Positions 9,853-15,242 of a DNA stretch of 64,000 nucleotides are shown piece after piece (position 1 is the stretch's first letter; each line of letters begins with the position of its first letter). Position numbers and translations under genes: made by a program. Origin of the DNA: Cognatiluteimonas profundi (GTDB taxonomy: Bacteria > Pseudomonadota > Gammaproteobacteria > Xanthomonadales > Xanthomonadaceae); contig NZ_VKHQ01000005.1 in the NCBI RefSeq assembly GCF_009792795.1, forward strand, positions 186,001 through 250,000, read 5' to 3'. The notes under the pieces are model-generated. The model did no database searches. It was given only the letters and a program-made list of their open reading frames with translations, and was not told the DNA's origin.

Positions 9853-10077
9853 GGGTCACCAGATGGGGAGAAGTCGTTCGCGCAAGCCATGCGGGCCGCC
9901 TGGGCCGCCGGAAGCCTGCGGCGCGAAGCCCGCCATTGTCGCCGATGCGCCGGCCGGGGACAAAACGCCCGGTCCCGTCCCGCCGCCAAAACCCCGCGAT
10001 TGGCGTTGCGTCGCGCCGGCTCCGGCAGCGCGCGTGTGCCTATACTCGGCGGGATTTCCCCCGATCCGGCCGCCCGC

Positions 10078-11691
10078 TTGCCGACCCGTCCCGACCCCGC
10101 GATCGCGGCACCGCCGCTGTCCGCCGACGCCGCCCTGCGCCGCGAGCTGTACTTTTTCGGCTTGTACCGGATGCTGGAGGCGTCGCTGCTGGCGCTGATG
10201 GTCTTCAGCCCGGTCGGGGCCTGGATCGGCGTCGCCGAGCGTTCGCGGCTGGGCCAGGCCACGACCGTCTTCTACCTGGTCGCCAGCGTGCTCCTGCTCG
10301 GCTGGGCGCAACGCCAGCGCGCACTGCGCGCGCAGGTGATGGTCGCCACCCTCATCGACATCACCGTGGCGACGCTCGCCATCCACGCGCTGCCCCTGGC
10401 CTCGCCGGGCATCGCGCTGATGCTGCTGTTCAATATCGGCGCCGCTGCCCTGTTGCTGCCGCTGCGCTACGGCCTTGGCGGGGCGGCGCTGGCGGCCCTG
10501 GCGATGATCGGCGAGCTGGTCTGGACCTCGCTGCACGGCAACGAGAGCGCCATCTCGTTCGCCGAGCGCATCATGTTTTCGGTCAGCTTCCTCGCCATCG
10601 CCATGCTGACCTACCTGCTCGGACGGCAGATGCGGGCCAGCCAGGCGCTGGCCGAGCGCCGCGGCCTGGAGCTGGCCGACCTGGCGGAAATCAACGAACT
10701 GATCATCCGGCGCATGCGCAACGGGGTGGTCGTGGTCGATGGCGAAGGCCGTCTGCGGCTGGCCAACGAGGCGGCCCTGCAGTTGCTCGGTGAAGCCGGT
10801 GAAGGCGAACGCAACCTGGCGGTGGCCGCGCCGGAGCTGGCGCGCCGGCTGGCGAAATGGCGGGAAGACGGGCAAAACGACGATACCCCGCTGCGGCTGG
10901 GGGCCGAGTCCGAAGTCCTGCCGCGATTTGCCCGGCTGCTGGCCAACAGCGATGCGGTGCTGGTGTTCCTGGACGACACCTCGATGGTGTCGCGTCGCGC
11001 CGAGTCGATGACGCTGGCGACCCTGGGCCGGTTTTCGGCCAGCCTGGCCCACGAGATCCGCAATCCGCTGGCCGCGATCAGCTACGCGACCCAACTGCTG
11101 GAGGAATCGCGCGACATCGTCGACGGCGACCGGCGCCTGCTGGAAATCGTCGGCCAGCAGTGCGCGCGCACCAATGGCATCGTCGAAAGCGTGCTGGGCA
11201 TCGCCCGGCGCGAACGCGCCAATCCCGAGCACGTCGACCTCGTCGCCTGGGTCCGCCGGTTCATCGACGACTACCAGCAGATGCTGCCGCCCGAGTCGGG
11301 CACGGTGCACGCGACGCACGCGACCGCCGCGATCCCGGCGCTGGTCGATCCGCGCCACCTGCAACAGGTCTGTACCGTGCTGCTGCAGAACGCCCTGCAC
11401 TACGGCCGCCTTCCCAGCGATCCCGCACGGGTCACCCTGGTCGTCCACTCACTGGGCGGCAAGCCGGCGATCGATGTGGTCGATCGCGGCCCGGGTATTC
11501 CCGAGGCACTGCGGCCACGATTGTTCCGGCCGTTCTATACGACGTCCGAGCACGGCACCGGCCTTGGCCTGTATATCGCCCGCGAACTCTGCGTCGCCAA
11601 CGAGGCGACCCTGGACCATGTCCCGGTCCCGGGAGGCGGCAGTTGCTTTCGCGTCATCCTTCCGGCTCCGCATGCCTTGCTCCGGGCATGA
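10078..11691 (+). CDS. pilS: Two-component sensor histidine kinase PilS
   Basis: Membrane sensor kinase that controls pilin transcription through PilR; in Pseudomonas it senses pilin levels in the inner membrane. About six hydrophobic segments (residues ~30-185), then a PAS-like region, the HisKA H-box with His325 (SLAHEIRNPLAAISY), and a HATPase domain ending in GTGLGLYIA (~493). The start is uncertain: a TTG at 10078 gives 537 residues; a GTG at 10036 is possible, but a TATACT hexamer (10041-10046) just after it looks like a -10 element and favours the later start. Downstream pilR follows after 68 bp. Confidence 0.9.
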   Translation: MPTRPDPAIAAPPLSADAALRRELYFFGLYRMLEASLLALMVFSPVGAWIGVAERSRLGQATTVFYLVASVLLLGWAQRQRALRAQVMVATLIDITVATLAIHALPLASPGIALMLLFNIGAAALLLPLRYGLGGAALAALAMIGELVWTSLHGNESAISFAERIMFSVSFLAIAMLTYLLGRQMRASQALAERRGLELADLAEINELIIRRMRNGVVVVDGEGRLRLANEAALQLLGEAGEGERNLAVAAPELARRLAKWREDGQNDDTPLRLGAESEVLPRFARLLANSDAVLVFLDDTSMVSRRAESMTLATLGRFSASLAHEIRNPLAAISYATQLLEESRDIVDGDRRLLEIVGQQCARTNGIVESVLGIARRERANPEHVDLVAWVRRFIDDYQQMLPPESGTVHATHATAAIPALVDPRHLQQVCTVLLQNALHYGRLPSDPARVTLVVHSLGGKPAIDVVDRGPGIPEALRPRLFRPFYTTSEHGTGLGLYIARELCVANEATLDHVPVPGGGSCFRVILPAPHALLRA

Positions 11692-11759: not shown

Positions 11760-13175
11760 ATGAGTGATCCCCAAAGCGCTTCCCCCAGCGCACTGATCGT
11801 CGACGACGAGCACGACATCCGCGAGTTGCTGGTGCTGACCCTGGGCCGGATGGGACTGCGCACCGATACCGCCGCCACCGTCGCCATGGCCCGCGCGCAA
11901 CTGGCGCAGGGCAACTACGACCTGTGCCTGACCGACATGCGCCTGCCCGACGGCACCGGCATGGACGTGATCGCGACGATCGCAGCCAACCACCCCGACA
12001 CCCCGGTTGCGATGATCACCGCGTTCGGCAATGTCGACGCCGCCGTGGAGGCCCTCAAGGCCGGCGCGTTCGACTTCGTCAGCAAGCCGGTCGACCTCGC
12101 CGTGCTGCGTGGCCTGGTCAAGCAGGCGCTCGAGCTCAACCAGCGCCGCCGCGAGGGCCTGGGCAAGATCCGCGCCGATGCCGGCCTGGGGCGGCTTGGC
12201 GGAAATTCCGCGGCCATGCAGACCCTGCGCGAGACCGTCGCCAAGGTCGCGCGCAGCCAGGCTCCCATCTCGATTTCGGGCGAGTCCGGCGTCGGCAAGG
12301 AGCTCGTCGCGCGCACCATCCATGCCGAGGGCGGCCGCGCCGGCGGGCCCTTCGTGCCGGTCAACTGCGGCGCCATCCCGGCCGACCTGATGGAGAGCGA
12401 ATTCTTCGGCCACAAGAAGGGCAGCTTCACCGGCGCCCACGTCGACAAGGCCGGGCTGTTCCAGGCAGCCGATGGCGGCACCTTGTTCCTCGACGAAATC
12501 GCCGAGCTGCCGCTGCCGATGCAGGTCAAGCTGCTGCGCGCGATCCAGGAAAAATCGATCCGCCCGGTCGGTGCATCGACGGAACTGTCGGTCGACGTCC
12601 GCATCCTGTCGGCGACCCACAAGGATCTTGCGGGGCTGGTCGCCGATGGCCGCTTCCGCCACGACCTGTACTACCGCATCAACGTCATCGAACTGCGCGT
12701 GCCGCCTTTGCGCGAGCGCATCGAGGACCTGCCGATCCTGGCCGAGACCATCCTCGTGCGACTCTCGGCCGGACAGCACCGGACCCCGCCGTCGCTGGGC
12801 AGCGATGCCCTGGCCGCACTGCAGGCCTACGCCTTCCCCGGCAACGTGCGCGAGCTGGAGAACATCCTCGAGCGCGCGCTGGCGCTGGCCGATGGCGACG
12901 TCATCAACGTGGCCGACCTGCGCCTGCCCACCGCTGCTCCGGTCGCGCCCAGCGCACGCCCGGCCGCGGCCCCCGCCGAGCCCCGCGACCCGCGCACGAT
13001 GAGCCCGCGCGAGAGCGCCACCAGCGCGCTGCCCTCCTTCATCGAGGAAATCGAGCGCGCCCAGATCCAGCAGGCACTCGTCGAGAACCGCTACAACAAG
13101 ACCCGCGCCGCCTCGGCACTGGGCATCACGTTCCGCGCGCTGCGATACAAGTTGAAGAAGCTCGGGATCGAGTAG
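11760..13175 (+). CDS. pilR: Sigma-54-dependent response regulator PilR
   Basis: NtrC-type activator of pilA. Receiver domain with phospho-acceptor Asp59 (LTDMRLPDG), AAA+ domain with Walker A GESGVGKE (~172-179), the sigma-54 contact loop GSFTGA (221-226, a common variant of GAFTGA), and a Fis-type helix-turn-helix at the C-terminus (NKTRAASALGITFRALRYKL). 471 residues, standard for the family. Follows pilS. Its likely target is the sigma-54 promoter at 14693 before pilA, which has inverted repeats upstream. Confidence 0.96.
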   Translation: MSDPQSASPSALIVDDEHDIRELLVLTLGRMGLRTDTAATVAMARAQLAQGNYDLCLTDMRLPDGTGMDVIATIAANHPDTPVAMITAFGNVDAAVEALKAGAFDFVSKPVDLAVLRGLVKQALELNQRRREGLGKIRADAGLGRLGGNSAAMQTLRETVAKVARSQAPISISGESGVGKELVARTIHAEGGRAGGPFVPVNCGAIPADLMESEFFGHKKGSFTGAHVDKAGLFQAADGGTLFLDEIAELPLPMQVKLLRAIQEKSIRPVGASTELSVDVRILSATHKDLAGLVADGRFRHDLYYRINVIELRVPPLRERIEDLPILAETILVRLSAGQHRTPPSLGSDALAALQAYAFPGNVRELENILERALALADGDVINVADLRLPTAAPVAPSARPAAAPAEPRDPRTMSPRESATSALPSFIEEIERAQIQQALVENRYNKTRAASALGITFRALRYKLKKLGIE

Positions 13176-13191: not shown

Positions 13192-14559
13192 GTGTCTCCA
13201 ATTCAACCCAGCGCACGTTCCCGCACCTGGCTGGCGTACGCCGTCCTTGCCGGCATCCTGGCCCTGTCCGCATGGTTGCAGTGGACGACCATTCGAGAGA
13301 CGCATGTGGTGGCGCCGGCCCGGCCCGATGCGGCGTCCTACGTATCGTATGCCTACAACCTGCGCACGTTTTCAGTGTATTCCCGCGCGCACACGTGGCT
13401 GGAGAAGGCACCCGGCATTCCCGCTGCAGACGCCGTCAGCACGCCCGGATACCCGTTGTTCCTGACCGCGTTCATGCGCGACAAACCGGATCTTGGCTTC
13501 ATGTATCGCGTTGTCACCGCGCAGGCCATCCTTGGCGTCTTGACGACACTGCTCGTCTTCCTGCTTGCCCGAATGGTGTTGACACCGCCGCTCGCCTGCG
13601 TCCCGGCGTTGTTGACGGCGCTGACTCCGCAGATGGAAACCATCAGTACCTACCTGCTGACCGAATCTCTCTTCACCGCACTGCTCGTGCTTTCAACGCT
13701 GCTGTTTGCAGCAGCGATCCGATCTCGCAGGCCGTGGCAATGGGCGTTGGCGGGGACCGTTTTTGCGCTGTGCTGCCTGGTGAGGCCGACCCTGCAACTA
13801 CTGTTGCCGCTTACCCTTGTCCTCATGTTTTTGGTCAAGGGCTGGCGCCGATTGATCCGCCCCGTCGCCTTGGCCACTGCATGCTGGGTCGTGTTGCTGC
13901 TCCCGTGGTTTGCCTACAAGGAGTCGATACCGACCAGCCAGGAAAACCCGAACCTGTTGCGCGCGTCGCTGTACCACGGGTCATTCCCCGACTTCATGTA
14001 TGAGGGACAAAAGCTGAACTTCGGCTACCCCTACCGCGACGATCCGCATGCGGCGGAGATCATGGCGAGCTATGCCGGCCTGGAGAAATGGGTCGGCGCA
14101 AGGGTGCGCGCAGAACCATTGCATTACCTGCAGTGGTACCTCATCGGAAAGCCGCGTTACTTTCTCTCGTGGTATCCGGTTGCGGCTGCCAGCGACATCT
14201 TCATTTACCCGGTGGATGCATCGCCGTTCATCAGCCGCCCATCATTCCAACTGATGCACGCATTGATGGTCGGACTGCACTGGCCGCTGATGCTGTTCGG
14301 CATTGGTGGTGCATTGCTGTCCTGGGTGCGACCGCAATCCCTGGGGCTGTCGACGGGAGCATTGGGAACGGCACGCCTGACTGGCTTGATGTTCCTCTCA
14401 GCCATCCTGCTGCACATGATCGGGGCACCCTTCCCGCGCTACAGCATTCCCTTCCGGCCATTGGCATTCATTCTGGCCGTGGCCGCGGCGGTCGCCGCGA
14501 CGCGGACGGCTAACGCGCTTCGCGGCGAGGCGGTTCGTCGGGCCGCAGCGCGGGCGTGA
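13192..14559 (+). CDS. GT-C-type integral membrane glycosyltransferase (GT39/ArnT-like)
   Basis: 455-residue protein with a dozen or so hydrophobic segments. After the first one, the predicted periplasmic loop holds an acidic motif (ARPDAASYVSY), the arrangement seen in GT-C enzymes that use polyprenyl-phosphate sugars. Later segments include TPGYPLFLTAF and PFPRYSIPFRPL, typical of the glycosyltransferase-39/RgtA-like group. Starts with GTG 16 bp after pilR and so is probably cotranscribed with it, just upstream of the pilA promoter. Pilin or LPS modification is a reasonable guess from context; acceptor and donor are not shown by the sequence. Confidence 0.75.
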   Translation: MSPIQPSARSRTWLAYAVLAGILALSAWLQWTTIRETHVVAPARPDAASYVSYAYNLRTFSVYSRAHTWLEKAPGIPAADAVSTPGYPLFLTAFMRDKPDLGFMYRVVTAQAILGVLTTLLVFLLARMVLTPPLACVPALLTALTPQMETISTYLLTESLFTALLVLSTLLFAAAIRSRRPWQWALAGTVFALCCLVRPTLQLLLPLTLVLMFLVKGWRRLIRPVALATACWVVLLLPWFAYKESIPTSQENPNLLRASLYHGSFPDFMYEGQKLNFGYPYRDDPHAAEIMASYAGLEKWVGARVRAEPLHYLQWYLIGKPRYFLSWYPVAAASDIFIYPVDASPFISRPSFQLMHALMVGLHWPLMLFGIGGALLSWVRPQSLGLSTGALGTARLTGLMFLSAILLHMIGAPFPRYSIPFRPLAFILAVAAAVAATRTANALRGEAVRRAAARA

Positions 14560-14574: not shown

Positions 14575-14678
14575 TGACGCATCGCGTCACTTTCCGCGCC
14601 ATGGTGACGTCTTGCGTCAGTTCTCCTGGGCCACGCGGGCCGTTCAGTGACGTTCCGCACATTTTCGCAGTGACGTCA
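14575..14678 (+). promoter_or_regulatory. Candidate PilR upstream activating sites
   Basis: Two inverted repeats of the form TGACG-N5-CGTCA, at 14575-14589 and 14605-14619, are exactly 30 bp apart (about three helical turns). Further TGACG half sites lie at 14648-14652 and in the palindrome TGACGTCA at 14671-14678. They precede the sigma-54 promoter by roughly 75-120 bp, the usual place for an NtrC-type activator. Assignment to PilR is by position. Confidence 0.6.
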
Positions 14679-14692
14679 CGCTCTTGGCCGTA

Positions 14693-14709
14693 TTGGCACG
14701 CGTCGTGCG
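14693..14709 (+). promoter_or_regulatory. Sigma-54 (-24/-12) promoter of pilA
   Basis: TTGGCACG-CGTC-GTGCG matches the consensus TTGGCACG-N4-TTGCW, with the invariant GG at 14695-14696 and GC at 14707-14708 at the correct 12-bp spacing. Transcription should start near 14720, giving a leader of about 88 nt before pilA. Confidence 0.85.
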
Positions 14710-14807
14710 TATGATTCCCTGCACGTGCATCGTTGCACGGCTACCCGACGGATCCGGAATGCCGGCCGCGTGGGCACGTGAAGTTCAACACTCCTAGGGG
14801 ATACACC

Positions 14808-15242
14808 ATGAAGAACATGAAGAAACTGCAGCAGGGCTTCACCCTGATCGAATTGATGATCGTCATCGCGATCCTCGGCATCCTGATGGCCATCGCGATC
14901 CCGGCCTACCAGGACTACGCGGTCCGCGCCAAGGCGGCGGAAGGCATCAACCTGGCAGGTGCCACCAAGCTCGCGACGGCCGAGACGTACTCGTCCACCG
15001 GTCGTCTGCCTCCGAACAACACCAGCGCAGGCATGCCCACCGCAGCGTCGATCAACGGAAAGTATGTAGCGTCCGTTTCGACCGCTTCCGGCGTGGTCAC
15101 GATCACGTACAACGGCACCGAGCCGAAGCTCACTTCGAGCAGCACGCTGCTCCTTTCGGCAACGACCCAGGCGGGTTCGATCAAGTGGAAGTGCAAATCC
15201 GCGAACATCTCATCCAAGTATCTGCCGTCCGAATGCCGCTGA
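14808..15242 (+). CDS. pilA: Type IV major pilin PilA (prepilin)
   Basis: Class IVa prepilin of 144 residues, the structural subunit of the type IV pilus. Ten-residue leader [10 protein letters not shown] is cut by PilD after Gly; the mature N-terminus [20 protein letters not shown] has the N-methylated Phe+1 and Glu+5. The globular part is rich in Ser/Thr (for example [12 protein letters not shown]), and two C-terminal cysteines (WKCKSAN... and PSECR) form the expected D-region disulfide loop. The ATG has a nearby AGGGG. Its own sigma-54 promoter and terminator make it a separate, strongly expressed unit. Flanked on both sides by membrane glycosyltransferase genes, so Ser/Thr glycosylation is a fair hypothesis. 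Confidence 0.95.

Follow-up and report, generated by a model that had tools for sequence, protein, structure and literature searches.

Which protein acts on the DNA ahead of the type IV pilin gene pilA of Cognatiluteimonas profundi? In the window analysed here, by which we mean the whole stretch of 64,000 nucleotides, pilA is preceded by two inverted repeats, TGACGCATCGCGTCA and TGACGTCTTGCGTCA, hereafter called dyads. An earlier note on this DNA had described them as repeats of identical form lying exactly 30 bp apart, and direct reading of the sequence, start to start, confirmed this. The dyads precede the -24/-12 promoter of the gene for the major type IV pilin, the first of them 15 bp from the stop codon of a PMT_2 gene, and the genome encodes both PilS and PilR, from a pilS-pilR pair located one gene upstream of the dyads and pilA (Table 1). 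The name pilR is based on the place of the gene beside pilS and on its relatives, because none of the best 25 NCBIfam matches listed reaches the cut-off of its model. An alternative start of pilA, the ATG at 14817, is also possible. Between 14500 and 15400, no match to an Rfam family was obtained at E values up to 1.

Table 1. Features of the pilS-pilR-pilA locus (positions are those of the window).
Feature	Position	Strand	Remarks
pilS, sensor kinase	10000..11691	+	Pfam 6TM_PilS, PAS, HisKA and HATPase; translated from 10000, true start codon not fixed
pilR, NtrC-type response regulator	11760..13175	+	Receiver, sigma-54 interaction domain and HTH_8
PMT_2 membrane mannosyltransferase-like gene, between pilR and pilA	13192..14559	+	ORF, Pfam
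Distal dyad TGACGCATCGCGTCA	14575..14589	.	119 bp upstream of the T in TGGC
Proximal dyad TGACGTCTTGCGTCA	14605..14619	.	89 bp upstream of the T in TGGC and three helical turns away from the distal dyad
Lone half-site AGTGACG, TGAC at -46	14648..14652	+	46 bp upstream of the T in TGGC; position common to part of the promoters (17/98)
TGACGTCA adjoining the -24 element	14671..14678	.	Without conserved position
Sigma-54 (-24/-12) promoter TGGCACGCGTCGTGCG	14694..14709	+	Sequence reading; alignment of relatives
5' leader of pilA, as far as the ATG	14710..14807	+	Kept in many relatives
pilA, major type IV pilin	14808..15242	+	144 aa from ATG 14808; N_methyl and Pilin domains (Pfam)

The pattern TGACG-N5-CGTCA matches these two sites and nothing else in the 64 kb window, where 0.21 matches are expected and one of 100 shuffles reached two. 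Genome-wide (2.71 Mb) it is found at 12 places, two of which are the pilA dyads. Two copies of TGAC-N7-GTCA separated by 4–18 bases, a double dyad, occur once in the genome, at pilA, and a reversed control gave none; similarly, the genome has a single occurrence of exact dyads set 19–33 bp apart, again at pilA. When a single dyad was combined with a loose sigma-54 site (two patterns), four places were found, and the form TGACR-N5-YGTCA was present at pilA only.

We examined conservation in pilin genes taken from three sources, namely 80 named PilR loci, 30 loci of a PilA search over 100 genomes that included our own (99 of the 100 matched), and 52 extra promoter stretches from those same genomes. 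A script collected 150 distinct pilin-like genes, 116 of which had a sigma-54 score of at least 24 and at least 200 bp of upstream sequence; 101 promoters passed the further requirement of at least 60 bp to the start codon, and 98 non-redundant ones remained once near-duplicates were taken out. Another 47 loci, including ten dyad loci of our own genome, held no gene fitting the pilin pattern, and one region (L117) was too short. In a de novo search of all pairs of 4-letter words at gaps of 0–16 between -180 and -25, TGAC-N7-GTCA was the top-ranked dyad; it occurred in 63 of the 98 promoters, whereas dinucleotide shuffles gave 0.25 on average, and the highest count reached by any dyad in 40 such shuffles was 10. 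Indeed, the gap is highly specific, since at every other gap from 0 to 24 the two words were found in at most six promoters. In the 200 bp upstream of the -24 element, an exact dyad is present in 67 of the 98 promoters, and 85 have one once a single mismatch is allowed (the average over 20 shuffles was 7.2 and the highest value 12); 13, some of them belonging to secondary pilin genes, have none even then. As for the letters around the dyad (n = 75), G follows TGAC in 36 cases, C follows GTCA in 55, and T stands two further on in 53. The sites had been described as TGACG-N5-CGTCA; this holds for the two copies in the window but not for the conserved core, which is TGAC-N7-GTCA.

Counted with at most one mismatch, the dyad is present in 7/7 promoters of the genus, 27/33 from the rest of the family, 21/26 from other families of the order, and 30/32 of the named loci, a group of mixed families that includes one locus of the genus Cognatiluteimonas (from genome G007). 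A further set was assembled from 34 genomes reached via the named loci (19 + 15), Pseudomonas among them, with a score of at least 25 and at least 40 bp to the start codon, promoters overlapping the first set being left out. Exact TGAC-N7-GTCA was found in 13 of the resulting 22 promoters, which are new to the first set and separate from it by promoter, but not wholly by genome, as the genomes of L063, L064 and L065 feed both sets. At gaps 3–6 and 8–12, the combination of TGAC and GTCA was seen in 0/22 of the further promoters at each gap. Seven of 12 Pseudomonas and Stutzerimonas genomes (none of them P. aeruginosa) had a sigma-54 pilin promoter (L182, L185, L190, L192, L194, L197, L208); four of the seven carry the exact dyad (L182, L185, L190, L197), and L194 and L208 have a one-mismatch dyad at -89 and -88, respectively. 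The dyad is kept across pilA promoters with fixed geometry, and the absence of conservation that the earlier note had named as speaking against its proposal was not seen. That proposal, a candidate PilR operator in this family, gains support from these data, although its scope was drawn too narrowly, given that other families and Pseudomonas carry the dyad as well.

Dyads also keep a regular distance from one another. Among pairs consisting of one exact dyad and another with at most one mismatch, 13 are spaced 20–22 bp and 15 are spaced 29–32 bp; the remaining pairs are one at 27 bp, one at 34 bp and eight at 45–84 bp. Thus, 28 of the 30 pairs within 20–34 bp fall on seven distances, for which the binomial probability is 7e-8 under an assumption of independence that related genomes violate. 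The earlier description of the dyads as helically phased agrees well with the multi-dyad promoters (at most one mismatch), 32 of 35 having adjacent dyads at a distance of two or three turns of the helix (20–22 or 29–32 bp). The three-turn form is the one seen in the window, in G007 and in G045. Relative to the promoter, 71 of 78 exact dyads start 88–150 bp before the -24 element, which is an enhancer-like distance, and the periodicity of the starts is only weak (R at best 0.32).

Double dyads occur almost exclusively at pilin genes, whereas the single dyad is unspecific. Over the 100 genomes, our own included, double exact dyads separated by 4–18 bp turned up 13 times, in 13 genomes, and the reversed control was zero everywhere. 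Ten of the 13 are spaced 20, 22 or 29–32 bp, and in each of these cases a pilin gene lies no more than about 290 bp away; three of the ten come from the genus Cognatiluteimonas (G000, G004 and G007). At the other three, all with a 23 bp spacing, the 3 kb of sequence examined did not contain a pilin pattern. A single dyad together with a loose sigma-54 site was present in 77 and 61 of the 100 genomes for the two patterns, and many of the listed places are not at a pilin gene. As a side observation, the three double dyads away from pilin genes (L350, L357 and L358, in three genomes) contain GTCATG...CATGACC, and may be coding repeats or sites for a different regulator. We also noted that in tandem pilin pairs the second gene has a sigma-54-like site of its own in 12 of 21 cases. 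In those 12 pairs (L012, L017, L021, L043, L096, L109 and others), an exact dyad was found at the first gene in four and at the second in none; the second gene may share the enhancer of the first or be independent of it.

The most plausible protein to act on the dyads is PilR. We estimate a probability of roughly 85% that the two dyads form the upstream activating sequence (enhancer) of pilA to which PilR binds, and we infer the identity of the protein from the gene neighbourhood, from the finding of the double dyad almost only at pilin genes, and from the elimination of other sigma-54 activators. Each TGAC-N7-GTCA palindrome would bind one phosphorylated PilR dimer via the C-terminal Fis-type helix-turn-helix, and the dimers would then assemble into a ring and reach the promoter by looping of the DNA.

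A different sigma-54 activator, be it NtrC, FleQ or one of two other activator-like proteins, could bind the dyads instead, but we find this unlikely. Our own genome does encode NtrC and two others besides PilR, as its four proteins with strong Sigma54_activat matches are NtrC, PilR, L232 and L240, the last two being activator-like with receiver and HTH_8 domains. However, G007 has the double dyad at pilA with only NtrC and PilR as strong matches and one weak match (2.4e-6), although an activator might have been missed there because the genome is 91% complete. NtrC, for which the NCBIfam equivalog is over the cut-off in both our own genome and G007, has the consensus TGCAC...GTGCA. The dyads in the window read TGAC...GTCA, a different half-site, and TGCA-TGCA dyads were found in fewer than six of the 98 promoters at every gap. 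FleQ sites have the form GTCA-N6-TGAC, from which the dyads in the window differ in both orientation and gap, and Pfam matched no FleQ domain in any of the four strong activators that our own genome encodes. The arrangement GTCA-N5-TGAC is enriched (35/98 promoters), which is consistent with dyads and half-dyads being repeated every 20 bp. In Xylella, NtrC and PilR are stated to be the sole sigma-54 activators, and the sigma-54 promoter of pilA1 has been mapped there (PMC3224663). PilRX of Xanthomonas oryzae interacts with RpoN2 and regulates pilA, according to a review (PMC8657755). Our confidence in PilR, and in the more general reading given below, is tempered by the single dyads, which are not exclusive to pilA, and by the two unassigned activators in the genome.

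Two other comparisons bear on PilR. The first concerns the helix-turn-helix itself, for which 70 of the 80 loci gave a frame (that of L062 stops short of the helix). Of the loci read, nearly all those from Lysobacteraceae have LGITFRALRYKLKKLG as the PilR helix and those from Pseudomonas have either LGLSFRSMRYRLKKLG or LGLTFRSMRYRLKKLG, while PilR of the Dokdonella type has LGLTLRQLRYRLEKLG in place of LGITFRALRYKLKKLG. A changed operator was expected to accompany the changed helix, but covariation of helix and operator gave no separation: D. immobilis keeps TGAC-N7-GTCA, farther upstream at -199, despite its changed kind of helix, and L063 and L325, also of the Dokdonella kind, have no exact dyad. 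The second concerns the absence of PilS, a test with little power because PilS is so common (95 of the 100 genomes). A match to the PilS domain is absent in G014, G030, G041, G054 and G077, and the pilin matches of these genomes are weak save in G077, whose pilin region (L153) has no good sigma-54 site and no dyad. In G054, an 81% complete genome in which PilS was not matched, a pilin gene carries the dyad. Among the loci we also came across a record titled Bacillus subtilis (L033) with a Xanthomonas-like PilR, 69% identical to that of the window, which is probably due to contamination in that assembly.

Could the dyads instead serve a sigma-54-independent regulator, such as a CRP/Clp-like factor or a nucleoid protein, that modulates pilA? 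CRP/Clp sites have the form TGTGA-N6-TCACA, and GTGA-N6-TCAC, an arrangement of this type, is indeed present in 13 of the 98 pilin promoters against 0.36 expected. In the dyads, however, the gap between GTGA and TCAC is 9 and not 6, and the peak at gap 9 is the larger one (28/98); the upstream position of 71 of the 78 dyads and the whole-turn spacing are, moreover, as expected of an enhancer, and we regard such a regulator as very improbable. The GTGA-N6-TCAC sites (maximum of 3 in 100 shuffles), for example those in L065, L133, L141 and L150, lie at varied positions, and a second pilA regulator of the CRP/Clp type is possible. Chance occurrence of TGAC and GTCA words in a G+C-rich genome, for which one might invoke the 10 other places with exact TGACG-N5-CGTCA, is hardly credible in view of the conservation, the gap specificity and the spacing.

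The earlier note had also pointed to two further TGACG elements nearer the promoter. Both exist, but only the one at 14648 has an enriched position. Half-sites with TGAC at -46 or -45 are found in 17 of the 98 promoters, and no other position from -66 to -34 exceeds 3. Thirteen of these 17 read CGTGAC and seven have CAGTT within 25 bp after it; the copy in the window reads AGTGAC and is without CAGTT in the stretch examined. A CRP/Clp site at -46/-45 was considered and rejected, as none of the 17 sequences has an exact TCAC at the appropriate gap; GTGA-N6-TCAC was seen at -48 in L120 and L126. The other element, TGACGTCA at 14671, showed no positional enrichment across the 98 promoters and is likely incidental.

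Downstream of the promoter, the pilA leader contains the blocks GCACGTGC, GCACGGC, CGACGGACCGG...CCGG, GGCACGTGAAG and CTCCTAGGGGA, kept in many relatives. For the leader alignment, 42 distinct sequences out of 87 candidates were picked for holding GCACGTG, a block that is therefore kept partly by choice, and 32 were aligned. The first hairpin is 92.8% paired compared with 91.2% in shuffles, and just one of its pairs shows changes on both sides; a slid control gave higher covariation scores, so an RNA structure is not established for this hairpin.

NtrC enhancers of the glnA type are paired palindromes set whole helical turns apart, roughly 100–150 bp upstream of a -24/-12 promoter. The pilA dyads resemble them as paired palindromes of similar length with whole-turn spacing at a similar upstream distance, but have the half-site TGAC where the NtrC enhancers have TGCAC. 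The element is of an ordinary kind, that of NtrC-type enhancers, but its consensus and spacing rule are unusually clear. In P. aeruginosa, the PilR region of pilA is said to contain tandem (N)4-6(C/G)TGTC half-sites. Hallmarks of PilR in that organism are given as TGT-N11-AGA and GTCT elements in PMC6058289, which cites Jin et al. (1994). P. aeruginosa pilA is similar to the present locus in its PilSR-dependent sigma-54 promoter with upstream activator sites (Jin, Ishimoto and Lory, 1994, as cited in PMC6058289), and its TGTC and GTCT words overlap with the GTCA half-site found here, which they resemble without being equal to it. The unit described here is, however, the palindrome TGAC-N7-GTCA and not TGT-N11-AGA with GTCT.

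Two other pilin systems offer partial parallels. Xylella fastidiosa belongs to the same family, and its pilA1 has a mapped sigma-54 promoter with PilR as the proposed activator, but the passages of that report at hand name no PilR operator (PMC3224663). In commensal Neisseria, pilE is controlled by Npa, likewise a two-component activator with an upstream sequence, in which a point mutation abolishes RpoN-dependent pilin expression (PMC6528607). An IHF site takes part there, whereas in our set an IHF bending site was rejected as a general part of the promoter, exact IHF-type matches (the only kind tested) being found in 4 of the 98 promoters, with that of the window not among them. The accessible text on Npa also gives no consensus for the activator sequence (PMC6528607). 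We found no description of a TGAC-N7-GTCA operator in the PilR and pilin literature searched, which comprised titles, starts of abstracts and passages, so that an earlier description is possible.

A broader reading, which we advance tentatively and to which we give slightly less than an even chance, would be that TGAC-N7-GTCA, as one dyad or as two at two or three turns, is the general PilR operator of Gammaproteobacteria, that PilR is in effect a single-target regulator in small genomes like this one, given the near-exclusive double form, and that a second half-site, GTGAC fixed in position at -46/-45, adds a further step close to the polymerase. In many bacteria the major pilin is under the control of PilR, whose operator has been only loosely described in the literature searched. 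A palindrome with a fixed gap and a spacing rule, shared from Lysobacteraceae to Pseudomonas, would make PilR targets directly predictable and would explain how the dimers cooperate. For the organism and its relatives, comparison of the promoters suggests that the dyad pair is a switch common to the same pilin gene in many related bacteria, and most likely the place where PilR lands.
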